Part shown: positions 17,756 to 24,786 of the stretch, in pieces | Position numbering within the stretch: the stretch's first letter is position 1 | How the letters are laid out: every line of letters starts with the position of its first letter | NCBI GenBank assembly: GCA_024692185.1 | Contig: JAILMV010000140.1 | Coordinates: forward strand, 1-40,043 | Direction of reading: 5' to 3' | DNA from: Bacteroidales bacterium | GTDB taxonomy: Bacteria; Bacteroidota; Bacteroidia; Bacteroidales; UBA932 | DNA: 40,043 nt | Translations under genes and position numbers: made by a program | The notes under the pieces: generated by a model | Seen by the model: the letters and a program-made list of their open reading frames with translations, nothing else | Database searches by the model: none | Told to the model about the DNA's origin: nothing

Positions 17756-18580
17756 ATGGACATTGCCTTGTTGTCGAAAATGATCGGCCAGCTTCTGCTG
17801 GATCACGAGGAGGTCGGCCTTCCGGGGCTAGGGGCCTTCATGGCCGAAATGGTGCCTGCAAGTTTCTCTGACAAAGGCTATACCATCAATCCTCCCTACA
17901 GGCGCGTAACCTTCCTTCCAAGCCGTTCCGAGGACGATTCTCTCGTAACTCTCTACAGCGAAAGCAACGGTATCGACTACGACCAGTCCAAGGCCATACT
18001 CCAGCATTTCCTGGAAGAGTCCAAGAAAGAGCTTCTGGAAAAGAAGCTAGTGGTATTCCCCGGACTGGGCCGCCTGCGCTCTACCCGTCAGAACAATTTC
18101 TTCTTCATCAGCGACGAGGACCTGGACATCTTCCCGGATGGTTTCGGTCTTGCCGCCGTGTCCCTCAAGAACCACGTGGAGACCAAGGAAGAAGTTCAGT
18201 CAAAGGTCGAGGAACTGGTAAGCCTGGTAGAGGGCCCGGTGCCAGTTGCCGCCGAAGAGGCAATGGAGCCTGCAGAGGAAATCGTTTCGATGGAAATTCC
18301 CGAAACCCCTCTGGTAGAATTGGCGGAAGAAACTCCCATAGAAGAGGCGCCCGCCCCTGCGGAAGAAGCTTCCGAGCCGGTGGCAGCCACCGAGCCCAAG
18401 GCAAAACGCGAACGCCATTTCCCTAAATGGCTCAAGGTCACGCTGATCACCCTGCTGGTGCTGGCTGCAGTGGCAGCCGTGCTGCTCGCCACCTTCGTTG
18501 TGCTGGCCCAGGCAGCCCCTGATTTCATAGACTCTATTCTCTATACTCCCGAGGAGCTCAGGATCATCAATTATCAATAG
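17756..18580 (+). CDS. HU-CCDC81-type domain protein with C-terminal TM segment
   Basis: MDIALLSKMIGQLLLDHEEVGLPGLGAFMAEMVPASFSDKGYTINPPYRRVTFLPSR resembles the prokaryotic CCDC81-like HU domain; acidic linker and TM segment at the C-terminus. Confidence 0.75.
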   Translation: MDIALLSKMIGQLLLDHEEVGLPGLGAFMAEMVPASFSDKGYTINPPYRRVTFLPSRSEDDSLVTLYSESNGIDYDQSKAILQHFLEESKKELLEKKLVVFPGLGRLRSTRQNNFFFISDEDLDIFPDGFGLAAVSLKNHVETKEEVQSKVEELVSLVEGPVPVAAEEAMEPAEEIVSMEIPETPLVELAEETPIEEAPAPAEEASEPVAATEPKAKRERHFPKWLKVTLITLLVLAAVAAVLLATFVVLAQAAPDFIDSILYTPEELRIINYQ

Positions 18581-18583
18581 AAA

Positions 18584-19153
18584 ATGGCCGAACTCCTCTA
18601 TCCTGCAGAACCCGCACCCCTGATGGGCGTCAAATCCGCCCGAGGAAACAGCGAAATCCTTCCTATAATAGAAGCTTCCGGCTTGGTAATCGGCCGCAGT
18701 ACCAGAAAGCTCTGCCACGGCCGTCCGGATCTGCTGCACCCGGTGGTCCATCTGCACATCATCGACCCTTACGACAATCTCTACCTCCAGAAGCGATCCA
18801 TGACAAAGGACCTGCTTCCCGGGAGATGGGATACTGCGGTCGGAGGCCATGTGACCTATGGCGAGAGTCTTATGGAGGCTCTTTTCCGCGAGGCAGGGGA
18901 GGAACTCGCGTTCGTGGATTTCAATCCCACCCTGCTGGAAAGCTATGTCTGGAATTCTCCCGTGGAATCCGAGATGGTGAACGTGTTTGCCACCGTTACC
19001 GACAGGGAGATAAATCCCGACAATGACGAGGTGGACGAGGGGCGCTGGTGGACGGCCCGCGAAATAGAGGAAAGCATGGGAAAAGAGATCTTCACCCCTC
19101 AGTTCGAGCAAGAATACTACAAGATTAAGAACAGGCTCTACGCACTTTTATAG
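18584..19153 (+). CDS. NUDIX hydrolase
   Basis: Nudix box GGHVTYGESLMEALFREAGEELAF. Confidence 0.88.
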   Translation: MAELLYPAEPAPLMGVKSARGNSEILPIIEASGLVIGRSTRKLCHGRPDLLHPVVHLHIIDPYDNLYLQKRSMTKDLLPGRWDTAVGGHVTYGESLMEALFREAGEELAFVDFNPTLLESYVWNSPVESEMVNVFATVTDREINPDNDEVDEGRWWTAREIEESMGKEIFTPQFEQEYYKIKNRLYALL

Positions 19154-19154
19154 T

Positions 19155-21236
19155 ATGGCCGACATTCATAAATTCATAAAGGACCAGTTGTCCGTTTGGC
19201 CTATGGCCGCGGCGAATTTCCGTTCGCTGAAGGCCGCCGAGTACCGTTCCTTCAAGATAGGCGAGCTCCCCGTAACCCTGCAGCTCAATCCTTGCAGGAT
19301 AGCATCTTCCACAGCCGAAGTGGACGAGGAGTCCATAGCTGCCAGGCCCTGCTTCCTTTGCGCCGGTAACCGCCCCAAGGAGCAGTTCCACGTGAAATAC
19401 GAGGGCAAGAAACACCGCAACTACAATGTGCAGGTGAATCCTTTCCCCATCTTCCGCAACCATCTGGTGATAGTCCGCGACCAGCATCTCCCTCAGACCA
19501 TCTGGCATCATTTCCCGGACATGCTGCTCTTTACCAAGATGTACCAGGACTTCACGGTGTTCTATAACGGTCCCATGAGCGGAGCGTCCGCTCCCGACCA
19601 TCTGCATTTCCAGGCCTGCCCCAGGGGCATACTGCCTTTGGAATTAGCGGCGGATAAGGCTCTGGACAATGCTACGGGCGAACTGGAGAGGGTGCAGGAT
19701 GCCAGCCTCTACAAGTTCGAGGGCTATACTCGCGGGGTGTACATACTCAAGAGTACTACCCAGAAATCCATGGCCAAACTCTTCTACCGCCTGCTGGAGT
19801 GTTCTCCGCGCAGGGAGGGGGAGAGCGAGCCCCGCTTCAACCTTTATTCCTGGTACAAGAACGGCGAATTCCGTACTGCGGTGGTGCTGCGTTCCAAACT
19901 CCGCTCCCATCATTATACTGCGGAAGGAGACGAGCATCTTACCATGAGTCCCGGTGCTGCCGACATGGCCGGATACTTCATCGCTCCCCGCGAGGAGGAC
20001 TTCCGCAAAATCCGCCAGGAACAGCTCTCCAGCATGGTCGAGGAGGTCTCGGTCAGCGAGGAGGACGATGCCCTGGTGGTATGGCGTCTGACCCGCAAGC
20101 AGCCCAAGATAGATGTGGGAATAATGGCCGCCAAGGAGATTACCTTCGAGATTATCTCCGACGGAGCCGGCCCTCAGAGAGTGAGCTGGGTGGACGGAAA
20201 GATAAACTACAACGGCTCTCTCTACGACGAACTCACCTTCGACGCAGTCACCCGTTCCACGCTTTTCAGCGAACCTACTTTCATTCTGCACGACATCACC
20301 ATAGGAATCGGTTTCCACTGGGAACAGAAGATCACCCGCCGTTTCGCGGGCAGGCTGCGATTCATCGTCGAGGGAGATAAGATCCGCGCCGTGAACCGCC
20401 TGGGCCTGGAGGATTATCTGCTCAGCGTAATCTCTTCCGAGATGCATGCGGATGCTCCTCTGGAGTTCCTGAAAGCGCACGCCATCATCTCCCGTTCCTG
20501 GGTAATGAGCAATCTCCGCAGCCACGGGCGTTTCGATGTGTGCGCCGATGACCACTGCCAGCGCTATCAGGGCCTGGACGGTGCCGTGGGCCAGAATGTC
20601 CGCGATGCCGTGGACCGTACTTGGGGCAGCGTGCTTACCTACGACGGTAAGCTCTGCGATGCCCGCTATTCCAAGTGCTGCGGCGGTACCATGGAAAAAT
20701 ACAGCACTTGCTGGGAAGACAAGGACTATCCCTATCTGCAGGCCCTGCCAGACGTCCCCGAAGAGGGAGGAAAGGCCTTCTGCGATACGGAAGATGAGGA
20801 AATCCTCCGTAAAGTCCTTAACGACTATGATCTGAAGACCCGCGATTTCTACCGCTGGACAGTGCGCTACTCCCGCGAGCAGCTGAGCCGTCTGATAGGC
20901 TCCGGCGTAGGAACAGTGCGGGAACTGAACGCCTTGAAGCGTGGCCCCTCAGGAAGGATATATGAATTGGAAGTGATTGGAGATGAAGGCCGTGTGGTGC
21001 TGGGCAAGGAACTTGCCATACGCAAGGCCCTCAGCCCCACTTGCCTCAAGAGTTCAGCCTTCGAAATCGAATGGAAGGGCGAAGAATGCATACTCCGCGG
21101 GCGCGGCTGGGGCCATGGTGTAGGCCTATGCCAGATAGGCGCGGCCGTAATGGCATCCAAGGGTTATGACTGCGCCCAGATTCTTTCCCATTATTATCCC
21201 GGTACCCTAATCTCTGAACTGAAATCGGATGAATAA
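19155..21236 (+). CDS. Fusion: N-terminal DUF4922-like/HIT-superfamily-like domain and C-terminal SpoIID/LytB domain
   Basis: N-term RPCFLCAGNRPKEQ...NPFPIFRNHLVIVRDQHLPQTI...YNGPMSGASAPDHLHFQACP; C-term GLEDYLLSVISSEMHADAPLEFLKAHAIISRSW...CQRYQG...WGHGVGLCQIGAAVMASKGYDCAQILSHYYPGT. Confidence 0.85.
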   Translation: MADIHKFIKDQLSVWPMAAANFRSLKAAEYRSFKIGELPVTLQLNPCRIASSTAEVDEESIAARPCFLCAGNRPKEQFHVKYEGKKHRNYNVQVNPFPIFRNHLVIVRDQHLPQTIWHHFPDMLLFTKMYQDFTVFYNGPMSGASAPDHLHFQACPRGILPLELAADKALDNATGELERVQDASLYKFEGYTRGVYILKSTTQKSMAKLFYRLLECSPRREGESEPRFNLYSWYKNGEFRTAVVLRSKLRSHHYTAEGDEHLTMSPGAADMAGYFIAPREEDFRKIRQEQLSSMVEEVSVSEEDDALVVWRLTRKQPKIDVGIMAAKEITFEIISDGAGPQRVSWVDGKINYNGSLYDELTFDAVTRSTLFSEPTFILHDITIGIGFHWEQKITRRFAGRLRFIVEGDKIRAVNRLGLEDYLLSVISSEMHADAPLEFLKAHAIISRSWVMSNLRSHGRFDVCADDHCQRYQGLDGAVGQNVRDAVDRTWGSVLTYDGKLCDARYSKCCGGTMEKYSTCWEDKDYPYLQALPDVPEEGGKAFCDTEDEEILRKVLNDYDLKTRDFYRWTVRYSREQLSRLIGSGVGTVRELNALKRGPSGRIYELEVIGDEGRVVLGKELAIRKALSPTCLKSSAFEIEWKGEECILRGRGWGHGVGLCQIGAAVMASKGYDCAQILSHYYPGTLISELKSDE

Positions 21237-22500
21237 TAGCAGAAGTCCCTGGTTCTGGGTACCGACGCTTTATTTTGCCGAGGGTATCCCCTATTTCATA
21301 GTGAACGTGGTTTCCGTGACCATGTTCAAGAGACTGGGGATGAGCAATGCCGACCTCGCGATGTACACCAGCCTCCTCTATCTCCCTTGGGTGATAAAGC
21401 CCCTGTGGAGTCCTCTGGTAGATGTAATCCGAACCAAGCGCTGGTGGGTACTGCTGATGCAGGTCCTGATGACCGTATGCTTCGCGGCCCTGGCCTTCAG
21501 CCTGCCTTCCAAGACCGGCGCACCAGTAGGAGCATTCAGCCTCTCGCTGGTAATCTTCTATATCACCGCAATGCTTTCAGCCACCCACGACATTGCGGCC
21601 GACGGTTATTATATGCTGGCCCTCGATGAACACCAGCAAAGCCTTTTCGTGGGTATCAGAAGCACATTCTACCGCATTGCCTCGGTCTTCGGCCAGGGCG
21701 TTATAGTGGTGGTGGCAGGGCTGCTCGAAACCCGTTACGGGGATATTCCCAAGGCCTGGACGGTCACCCTGCTGCTTAGCTCGGCCATCTTCCTCGCAAC
21801 CACAATCTGGCACCTTGCCATACTCCCCAGGGAATCTGTTCCTCAGGCTGCCGGCGGCGGAAAACGCAACATACTGTCGGCCTTCAGCACGTTCTTCCGC
21901 AAGCCTGGAATATGGCTTGCAATGGTTTTCCTGCTGCTGTACCGCCTCCCCGAGGCTCTTTCGGTAAAGATGCTCACTCCCTTCATGCTGGATTCTCTGC
22001 AGGACGGCGGGCTTGGCCTGAGTACCGCCCAGTCCGGCCTGGTCTATGGCACCGTGGGCGTGATAGCGCTTACGATAGGCGGCATCCTGGGAGGAATCTG
22101 GAGCGCGAAGGTGGGCCTGCGCAAGGCTCTCTGGCCCATGGCCCTTTCCCTTGCCCTGCCTTGTTCGGTCTATCTTTTCATGGCCATCGCCCAGCCCTCA
22201 AACATTCTCACGATTTATTTTTGCGTGGCCTTGGACCAGTTCGGATATGGCTTCGGATTCACGGCATACATGCTTTATATGATATGGTTCTCGCAGGGTG
22301 AGTACAGCACTTCCCACTATTCCATCTGCACAGCTTTTATGGCCCTGAGCATGATGGTTCCTGGTTTTTTCGCCGGAATCTTGCAGGAGTCCCTGGGCTA
22401 TACGGGTTTCTTCGTGCTGGTGATGGTATGCTGCCTCGCTACCCTTGCCGTGACCGCCTTTTTACCCTCCAAGATCGAGCCTTCTTATGGGAAAAAGTGA
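21229..22500 (+). CDS. MFS transporter, AmpG-like
   Basis: 12-TM-like hydrophobic profile; WFWVPTLYFAEGIPYFIVNVVSVTMFKRLGMSNADLAMYTSLLYLPWVIKPLWSPLVD is an AmpG/PAT-type N-terminus. Confidence 0.85.
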   Translation: MNNSRSPWFWVPTLYFAEGIPYFIVNVVSVTMFKRLGMSNADLAMYTSLLYLPWVIKPLWSPLVDVIRTKRWWVLLMQVLMTVCFAALAFSLPSKTGAPVGAFSLSLVIFYITAMLSATHDIAADGYYMLALDEHQQSLFVGIRSTFYRIASVFGQGVIVVVAGLLETRYGDIPKAWTVTLLLSSAIFLATTIWHLAILPRESVPQAAGGGKRNILSAFSTFFRKPGIWLAMVFLLLYRLPEALSVKMLTPFMLDSLQDGGLGLSTAQSGLVYGTVGVIALTIGGILGGIWSAKVGLRKALWPMALSLALPCSVYLFMAIAQPSNILTIYFCVALDQFGYGFGFTAYMLYMIWFSQGEYSTSHYSICTAFMALSMMVPGFFAGILQESLGYTGFFVLVMVCCLATLAVTAFLPSKIEPSYGKK

Positions 22501-22564
22501 ATTTGGTATGAATTATGCAATTTGAAAAGAAATAGCTAAATTTAGGACACTAAAATTGAGCATC

Positions 22565-23935
22565 ATGAAAACTACATTTAAATTAGCGCTCGCAGCCGTA
22601 GCGGCAATGGCGCTCGCAATAACCCCCGTAAACGGACAGTCCCGCAGCGGCGGAAGCAGCAGGTCATCGTCCTCTACCACTTCTTCCAGATCTTCTTCCA
22701 GCTCCTCATCGAGCTCGAGGGCGGTCGGAGGAACAATCTCCCGCTCCAGCAGCTCGGGCTCCAGGTCCAGCGCTAGCAGTAGCCGTTCAAGCTCAAGCGT
22801 GGGCCGCTCCAGCAGCTCAAGTTCCCGTTCAAGCGCAAGCGTGGGCCGCTCCAGCAGCTCAAGCTCACGTTCCAGCGCCAGTACCAGCCGCTCCGGCAGC
22901 AGCGTAAGCAGCTCCCGCTCCAGCAGCAGCGTAAGCCGCTCCGGCAGTACAATCTCCCGCTCCAGCAGCTCGGGCTCCAGGTCCAGCGCAAGTACCAGCC
23001 GTGCAAGTTCCAGCGGATCCCGCTCTTCGGTAGTTACTACCAACGGCGGCAGCCGCAGCACCGCGGTAAGCGGAGGCGCCCGCAATAGCGTCGCTAACGT
23101 GAATCCTACCAACAGCTACGATCGTCAGACCGCAGGAACTCCTAATTCCGTCCGCTTCGACGACCATGGCAAGCGTATAGCACCCATGCATCGCGAGCCG
23201 GTCCGCTACGACCGTCCCGGCTACTTCTACGGAAAGCATCCTCACTACTATGGATACCGCGTACACCATCTGCCTCACTATGACAGATATCGTTACTGGG
23301 GAAGGGATTACTACTTCTACAATGGTATCTACTATCGCTACTGGGGTAACTACTACCACATCTGCCGTCCTCCTTACGGAATCTTCTTCGACAGGGCTCT
23401 GTATGCACTGGAACTGGATGTGCTGAGGTTCGCATACTACAATAATGTGTATCGTACCTACAATGTAGTTAACAACAACTACTCCACCATAAACGAGCAG
23501 AACCAGATCATAGCTGAGAACAATGCGACCATCGCGGCCCAGAATGCCGCAATAGCGCAGAACAACGCTACGATGGCTGCTCAGCAGGCAGGGGTCGCCG
23601 CCCAGGGTTCTACAGCCACCATGGATGTCAATACCCTCAGGTCCTACGCTTCCTACCAGCTTGCCACCAGCCTCGGCCTCGTGCAGAGCTTCGCTGCAAA
23701 CGGACAGGAGTACTACTACGATGACGGTGTCTTCTTCATGACAGGAGCCAATGGCCAGTACAAGGTCATCGTTCCTCCTGCAGGAGCCCTCATCAAGGCC
23801 CTCCCTGAGGACTACGAGACCGTGGTGCTCTCCGATGGTAAAGAGTACTACAAGGTGGATGACACCATCTACCGTATGACGGTCTCCGACGGAGTTCCTT
23901 ACTTCGAGGTTCTCGGACAGATGCAGAACGCATAG
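22565..23935 (+). CDS. Secreted protein with Ser/Arg-rich low-complexity region and Tyr-rich DUF6515-like C-terminal part
   Basis: Signal peptide MKTTFKLALAAVAAMALAITPVNGQ; about 130 aa of SSSSRSSA-type repeats; YYFYNGIYYRYWGNYYHICRPPYGIFF and repeated YYYDDGVFFM-type motifs. ATG at 22565 preferred over TTG at 22556. Confidence 0.75.
   Translation: MKTTFKLALAAVAAMALAITPVNGQSRSGGSSRSSSSTTSSRSSSSSSSSSRAVGGTISRSSSSGSRSSASSSRSSSSVGRSSSSSSRSSASVGRSSSSSSRSSASTSRSGSSVSSSRSSSSVSRSGSTISRSSSSGSRSSASTSRASSSGSRSSVVTTNGGSRSTAVSGGARNSVANVNPTNSYDRQTAGTPNSVRFDDHGKRIAPMHREPVRYDRPGYFYGKHPHYYGYRVHHLPHYDRYRYWGRDYYFYNGIYYRYWGNYYHICRPPYGIFFDRALYALELDVLRFAYYNNVYRTYNVVNNNYSTINEQNQIIAENNATIAAQNAAIAQNNATMAAQQAGVAAQGSTATMDVNTLRSYASYQLATSLGLVQSFAANGQEYYYDDGVFFMTGANGQYKVIVPPAGALIKALPEDYETVVLSDGKEYYKVDDTIYRMTVSDGVPYFEVLGQMQNA
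22640..23036 (+). repeat. Imperfect tandem-repeat tract encoding Ser/Arg-rich segment
   Basis: 41-nt exact direct repeat at 22733-22773 and 22949-22989; 28-nt exact repeat at 22794-22821 and 22836-22863 (period 42 nt = 14 codons, SVGRSSSSSSRSSA). Confidence 0.85.
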
Positions 23936-23986: not shown

Positions 23987-24745
23987 CTATATAAGGGAGA
24001 AGGTCCGTTGCAGGGCGCTATCGTCGCCCGAGGCCAGGAGCTCGATCCGGGAAGAACCGTCTCCGTGGGAGATACCCCGCTGCTCCATTACTTCTATCAG
24101 ATGCGTGGCTACGGCCGGGGCCGGATCTATGAACTTGACTTCGGGGTGGCCCAGCGAAGCGGCGACCTTGCGCAAGCTTTCCAGCAGGAAGGGATAGTGG
24201 GTGCAGCCCAGCACTATTCTGTCGGCTCCCGCATCCAGCAGTGGCTTCAGGCTGGCCTTGACCACGGATTCGGCCTCAGGACCGCTCAGCTGGCCTTTTT
24301 CTACCAGTTCCACGAAACCCTTGCCCACCTGCTCCACTATTGTGACCTGGTCCTCGAAACGGCCCTTGGTGTTCAGATATTTGCTGCCTTTGAGAGTGCC
24401 GGCGGTGGCCAGAACTCCGATGACCTTGGTCTCGGTGCCCAGGGCGGCTGGTTTCACTGCAGGCTCCATCCCGATGAAGGGAATGCTGTATTTCTGGCGG
24501 AGATATTCTACCCCGGCGGCTGTGGCCGTGTTGCAGGCCAGGACCATCACATCCACCCCGCGGGAAAGGAAGAGCGCGGTTATCTTGTCCAGCCTTTCCC
24601 TGATGTAGGCGGGCGTCTTCTCGCCGTACGGGCAGTGGGCATTGTCGGAAAAATAGATGAAATGTTCATTCGGGAGAGCCTTGCGTATCTCGCGGAATAC
24701 GCTCAAGCCTCCTACGCCTGAATCCATTATGCCGATGCATGCCAT
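23987..24745 (-). CDS. murI: Glutamate racemase
   Basis: MACIGIMDSGVGGLSVFREIRKALPNEHFIYFSDNAHCPYGEK..., VLACNTATAAG, VLGCTHYPFL; ATG at 24745. Confidence 0.96.
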   Translation of the reverse strand: MACIGIMDSGVGGLSVFREIRKALPNEHFIYFSDNAHCPYGEKTPAYIRERLDKITALFLSRGVDVMVLACNTATAAGVEYLRQKYSIPFIGMEPAVKPAALGTETKVIGVLATAGTLKGSKYLNTKGRFEDQVTIVEQVGKGFVELVEKGQLSGPEAESVVKASLKPLLDAGADRIVLGCTHYPFLLESLRKVAASLGHPEVKFIDPAPAVATHLIEVMEQRGISHGDGSSRIELLASGDDSALQRTFSLI

Positions 24746-24764
24746 AGAGAATGATGTGATATCC

Positions 24765-24773
24765 ACAAAGATA
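24765..24773 (-). promoter_or_regulatory. -7 box TATCTTTGT for murI
   Basis: ACAAAGATA on + reads TATCTTTGT on -, upstream of the murI ATG at 24745. Confidence 0.55.
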
Positions 24774-24786
24774 ATCAAAAATGCAT

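Follow-up and report, generated by a model that had tools for sequence, protein, structure and literature searches.

The gene studied here lies in a stretch of 40,043 nucleotides from a member of the Bacteroidales (contig JAILMV010000140.1; the window), where the gene order is HU-CCDC81, Nudix, DUF4922-SpoIID fusion, AmpG-like. The relevant genes, domains and residues are as follows.

17756-18580, + strand: HU-CCDC81-domain protein (PF18174/PF18175) with a C-terminal hydrophobic segment, first of the tight gene group; the cluster recurs in relatives
18584-19153, + strand: Nudix hydrolase (PF00293), directly 5' of the fusion in most loci of the clade
19155-21236, + strand: DUF4922-SpoIID fusion protein of 693 aa with ATG start (ORF, Pfam, NCBIfam, relatives, models)
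19155-20093, + strand: DUF4922 domain, residues 1-313, GalT/Apa2-like, HIT superfamily (PF16269, AlphaFold, Foldseek)
19350-19361, + strand: CFLC (C66 and C69), putative metal site with H103 and H149 (conserved in 115/116 sequences)
19461-19463, + strand: H103, putative metal-site residue (115/116)
19599-19613, + strand: HLHFQ (H149-H151-Q153), putative catalytic motif (H149 116/116, H151 116/116, Q153 114/116)
20103-21233, + strand: SpoIID/LytB domain, residues 317-693 (TIGR02669, E 6e-57; Foldseek match to 5i1t, E 1.8e-14)
20439-20441, + strand: E429, predicted counterpart of the catalytic E101 of C. difficile SpoIID (alignment; 90/90)
20523-20558, + strand: H457, C463, H467 and C468, counterparts of the zinc ligands H134, C140, H145 and C146 (alignment; 89-90/90)
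21229-22500, + strand: AmpG-like muropeptide permease, MFS (TIGR00901, E 4e-48), overlapping the fusion gene by 8 bases

A single base separates the stop of the upstream Nudix gene from the start of the fusion gene. Its AmpG-like neighbour, which adjoins the target gene in most relatives, scores 164 bits with TIGR00901, below the cut-off of 350; the experimentally tested AmpG of T. forsythia is just 27% identical to that of E. coli (PMC7670621). Farther downstream lie a serine-rich, signal-like secreted protein with a DUF6515 end (22556-23935, + strand), which follows either AmpG or NamZ in 47 of the loci, and the glutamate racemase MurI, a peptidoglycan-precursor enzyme (23987-24778, - strand), whose cluster recurs in 28 loci.

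The 693-aa protein matches Pfam DUF4922 at residues 7-155 (E 3e-52; 176.8 bits, cut-off 23.6), Pfam SpoIID (PF08486) at residues 407-496 (E 2e-24; 86.7 bits, cut-off 23) and NCBIfam TIGR02669 (SpoIID/LytB) at residues 412-687 (E 6e-57; 193.7 bits, cut-off 83.3), and the AlphaFold model of the whole chain is confident (pLDDT 91.8, pTM 0.86). The same fusion is present in relatives down to 44% identity. Extraction yielded about 58 near-full-length fused relatives, so the fusion is a maintained feature, and a chance ORF or an assembly join is ruled out. The nearest named relatives of the window are rumen and gut Bacteroidales, some of them labelled Candidatus Cryptobacteroides. A preliminary description of this DNA had claimed a single 693-aa ORF with the motifs RPCFLC (19344-19361) and HLHFQ (19599-19613); that ORF is confirmed at 19155-21236, with both motifs exactly in place. 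It had also considered that the two halves might be separate proteins, which does not hold for the window and its clade, where they are truly fused, and does hold for other Bacteroidales, where they are neighbouring separate proteins.

Structural modelling supports assigning DUF4922 to the GalT/Apa2 branch within the HIT superfamily, in line with the HIT-like GalT/Ap4A-phosphorylase fold proposed in the preliminary description. With the AlphaFold model of this half (pLDDT 96.2), the top Foldseek match was yeast Apa2 (E 7e-11, TM 0.5-0.6), followed by GalT (E 1e-5), At5g18200 and a DUF4931 protein, and a profile of 76 DUF4922 sequences run against the PDB reached yeast Apa2 by sequence (E 2.4e-7). 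The HLHFQ histidines and CFLC cysteines, whose conservation had been put forward as a check, are kept in 115-116 of 116 sequences. H151 aligns with an Apa2 residue that is Ala in the Ap4A complex (chain 4i5v); the histidine that is its counterpart we take to be the nucleophile of Apa2. The 693-aa protein was rejected as a member of the Pfam family of Ap4A phosphorylases because Ap4A_phos_N scored 20.0 bits on it, under its cut-off of 23.1. The literature search for DUF4922 returned plant GGP papers only.

The C-terminal half is alignable with the SpoIID proteins of C. difficile and B. anthracis. This alignment, the TIGR02669 match and the Foldseek match to 5i1t (E 1.8e-14) bear out the SpoIID/LytB signatures described earlier for this half. 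The equivalog model for stage II sporulation protein D, TIGR02870, gave 137.4 bits, below its cut-off of 234.75; the window protein is not a sporulation SpoIID. To our knowledge, the cleavage known for SpoIID enzymes is that of MurNAc-GlcNAc bonds and not the opening of an anhydro ring. In C. difficile SpoIID, according to work summarised in PMC6934232, E101 is catalytic and H134, C140, H145 and C146 are zinc ligands. Activity of SpoIID requires denuded, i.e. peptide-free, glycan (PMC6221140). From such glycan the Waddlia enzyme releases mainly non-anhydro products (PMC6635528), and therefore water can serve as acceptor in the SpoIID family.

ORF calling and clustering covered the window plus 99 related loci. 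In other Bacteroidales, GT2, DUF4922, SpoIID, AmpG-like and NamZ proteins are encoded by separate adjoining genes, to which some loci then add a NagX-like membrane protein (MurT position), a kinase (MurK position) and MurQ. Some relatives continue with an AmgK-like gene that includes a RapZ domain, then one further gene, of whose cluster a MurU-like member was checked in L158. The pieces of the module are fused in several combinations across the Bacteroidales: a GT2-DUF4922 fusion of 778-783 aa precedes SpoIID and AmpG in L136, L137 and L140, and L153 encodes a single GT2-DUF4922-SpoIID protein of 1266 aa, then AmpG. In a DUF4922 tree whose deep branches are poorly resolved, most DUF4922-SpoIID fusions form one clade, outside of which fall L158, the GT2-DUF4922 forms and L153. 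No partner accompanies DUF4922 more constantly across the phylum than GT2, which retains the motifs QLDSDD and YGED; the window genome encodes a GT2 relative on a different contig (G000:C217), with 61% identity to the GT from a split locus. A setting in recycling is supported by the MurQ, MurU-like and AmgK-like genes that these loci or their genomes also contain. The most suitable reading appears to be that the fusion represents one version of a GT2/DUF4922/SpoIID module, conserved in Bacteroidota and tied to an AmpG importer.

Two further variants were seen among the relatives. An AmgK-like kinase domain is fused to a RapZ C-terminal domain 3' of AmpG-NamZ in L100 (8991-10406), and the same cluster occurs in L099, L101, L103, L105, L106, L120 and L125; this fusion could link amino-sugar recycling to regulation. 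The AmpG-like permeases of L145 (8772-10646) and, similarly, of L141, L142, L146, L150, L151, L155, L156, L159 and L160 measure about 613-633 aa, with an insertion of about 190 residues compared to the usual 425-440 aa.

A comparable gene set was described for T. forsythia, whose operon Tanf_08345-08385 comprises genes for xanthan lyase, gtf, gtf, lytB (Tanf_08360), ampG (Tanf_08365), ybbC, murT, murK and murQ (PMC5388701). Based on gene order we infer that the second gtf encodes DUF4922.

Signal peptides and transmembrane segments were judged by hydropathy, with NamZ as positive control. By this measure, neither a signal-like N-terminus nor a transmembrane segment was found in 60 fused proteins or in the split forms of SpoIID (24), DUF4922 (50) and GT (41); a signal-like N-terminus was present in 85% of the 55 NamZ controls. 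The lack of a signal peptide noted in the preliminary description is thus backed by hydropathy, and the compartment that it had found puzzling has a likely answer: the split and fused relatives, the adjacency of AmpG and hydropathy indicate that the SpoIID half of the fusion probably sits in the cytoplasm. Because a single-chain GT2-DUF4922-SpoIID protein exists, all three parts would share one compartment. Given that the set looks cytoplasmic and, together with AmpG, part of peptidoglycan recycling, cleavage of the wall itself is unlikely.

The distribution of the module was assessed by strong matches to the window protein (E below 1e-40), in counts that treat genomes regardless of kinship. 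Outside the order, DUF4922 occurs in 38 of 294 genomes and the cytoplasmic-type SpoIID in 37, all of them among those 38 (Fisher 3e-46), with the two genes often unlinked. Their joint presence in 37/38 genomes even when unlinked argues for coupled functions. The single exception outside the order, G223, has DUF4922 without this SpoIID type and carries AnmK. In the same genome a GH3 gene of the NagZ type, devoid of a signal, lies directly after DUF4922 (L022:2542-3432).

Within the order, AnmK was found in 12 of 79 module genomes (15%) as opposed to 182 of 216 others (84%), an odds ratio of 0.033 that ignores kinship; a weaker contrast, likewise ignoring kinship, was seen outside the order (16/38 module genomes versus 190/256 others, p 2e-4). 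Strict mutual exclusivity of AnmK and the module is rejected, since both are present in those 12 and 16 genomes. The anticorrelation lies mostly between families: among 31 module families, module members are without AnmK in 21, always with it in four and mixed in six. In families with both module and non-module genomes AnmK is mostly retained in both groups, and contrasts within families therefore have little power. The pattern is compatible with a gain of the module followed by loss of AnmK. A search of five genomes from the window's family gave no NagZ-type GH3 match in four (G000, G410, G492, G556), where more distant hexosaminidases are possible. All 14 module genomes checked have a strong match to MurQ or the AmgK-like kinase. 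AmgK as a fixed downstream partner was rejected, as it was not found in the window genome and several relatives; the estimated completeness of the window genome is 71%, which makes gene absences in it weak.

Growth of T. forsythia on GlcNAc-MurNAc and on GlcNAc-anhMurNAc depends on AmpG, the main substrates are peptide-free, and free anhMurNAc supports poor growth; AnmK is not predicted in this organism, and the authors leave the metabolic route to be explored (PMC7670621). Taking into account these data and the distribution of the module, we propose that AmpG would bring peptide-free GlcNAc-anhMurNAc and GlcNAc-MurNAc into the cytoplasm, where SpoIID may hold the disaccharide in the subsites in which lytic transglycosylases keep their product. 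With the conserved glutamate and a water molecule, SpoIID might then open the 1,6-anhydro ring, or otherwise act at the anomeric carbon of MurNAc, to yield an ordinary MurNAc sugar. Ring opening in the cytoplasm is proposed because SpoIID uses peptide-free glycan and Waddlia SpoIID yields non-anhydro products. The MurNAc would enter MurK/MurQ or AmgK/MurU, genes for which are present, and AnmK would not be needed. DUF4922 could be a GalT/Apa2-type nucleotidyl enzyme acting, together with GT2, most likely on a nucleotide-sugar of the GlcNAc half; these roles of DUF4922 and GT2 we infer from fold and linkage alone. If binding requires the GlcNAc unit, poor growth on free anhMurNAc would be expected, though limited uptake accounts for it just as well.

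These proposals differ in strength. That the fusion protein belongs to a cytoplasmic peptidoglycan-recycling module is likely. The opening of the anhydro ring by SpoIID is a tentative suggestion, with the odds against it. For the reading as a whole, a cytoplasmic two-domain recycling enzyme including its chemistry, we estimate a probability of roughly 0.55. It is tempting to speculate further on a route independent of AnmK and NagZ, in which SpoIID opens the anhydro ring with water by lytic-transglycosylase chemistry, while GT2 and a GalT-like phosphorylase carry out a UDP-relayed phosphorolysis of the disaccharide to GlcNAc-1-phosphate and MurNAc, but this exact scheme would be a long shot.

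Four other explanations have to be weighed. The triad might build or trim an intracellular glycan or glycoconjugate, with GT2 as the maker, DUF4922 supplying or salvaging the nucleotide-sugar and SpoIID as the cutter, and the link to AmpG being regulatory or coincidental. Such a role would suit GT2 as the steadiest partner with both of its motifs kept, and the T. forsythia operon has also been called glycosylation-related (PMC5388701). Yet AmpG and NamZ stand alongside, joined at certain loci by MurK-like/MurQ or AmgK-like/MurU-like genes, and the zinc and glutamate sites of SpoIID match those of peptidoglycan enzymes, which makes this explanation unlikely. We consider it slightly more doubtful that DUF4922 acts as a phosphorylase of general range, on Ap4A or nucleotide-sugars, which was joined to SpoIID for co-expression and leaves the recycling to the SpoIID half alone: although the structure nearest to it is Apa2, the Pfam Ap4A_phos_N match stays under its cut-off, and the two domains occur together in nearly every genome outside the order that has DUF4922. 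A function as sensor or regulator, in which SpoIID would recognise an imported muropeptide and DUF4922 would bind a nucleotide, catalysis being slight or absent, would agree with the joining of a ligand-binding domain to a nucleotide-type domain and with the HU-like gene that adjoins in the window's clade; it seems improbable in view of the catalytic residues kept in both domains of nearly all members, and of a fusion devoid of any DNA-binding or signalling output domain. Finally, characterised SpoIID proteins work outside the cytoplasm (PMC6635528, PMC6221140), but arrival of the SpoIID half in the periplasm by an unusual route to cut the wall there is hardly credible, as export is disfavoured by hydropathy across the fused and split proteins and by the single-chain fusion to GT2.

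The preferred reading, a cytoplasmic recycling enzyme, implies that the fusion is probably part of an as yet undescribed re-use of imported cell-wall sugars in bacteria that mostly do not have the textbook AnmK. Both of its domains belong to known families, and peptidoglycan recycling itself is already known; the literature searched, mostly outside subscription papers, held no account of the GT2/DUF4922/SpoIID set as a cytoplasmic recycling module. The fate of GlcNAc-anhMurNAc in T. forsythia was posed as a question (PMC7670621), and by gene order three candidate enzymes are found in the same operon; our data indicate that these enzymes form a cytoplasmic set co-inherited across the phylum. 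DUF4922, a family to which Pfam assigns no function, gains a predicted fold, conserved residues and a pathway setting. The analysis also suggests that many Bacteroidales annotations as 'amidase enhancer/SpoIID' refer to a cytoplasmic protein.

Likenesses to characterised systems extend to both domains and to the pathway. Yeast Apa2 (4i5t) and GalT are the closest fold matches of the DUF4922 half and share its HxHxQ site, but identity is only about 14% and TM 0.5-0.6, so that DUF4922 is likened to them by fold and motif. C. difficile SpoIID has the fold, the catalytic glutamate and the four zinc ligands in common with the window protein; by contrast, it is a sporulation protein working outside the cytoplasm, while the window protein has no signal, carries a fused DUF4922 and falls under the SpoIID equivalog cut-off. 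Waddlia SpoIID, with its non-anhydro products from denuded glycan in a non-sporulating bacterium, provides a precedent for hydrolysis, yet it has a signal peptide and is septal and predicted to be periplasmic (PMC6635528), whereas the window SpoIID has no export signal. With the NagZ/AnmK recycling pathway, module genomes share AmpG-type import and the MurQ or AmgK-like ends; they differ in being mostly without AnmK, and NagZ-type GH3 was unseen in four of the five genomes of the window's family. The order of the T. forsythia operon matches that of the split Bacteroidales loci analysed here (PMC5388701, PMC7670621). No role was assigned to its lytB and gtf genes in either of these papers, and its pieces are separate genes, whereas the window has DUF4922 joined to SpoIID in one chain, with GT2 encoded away from this locus.
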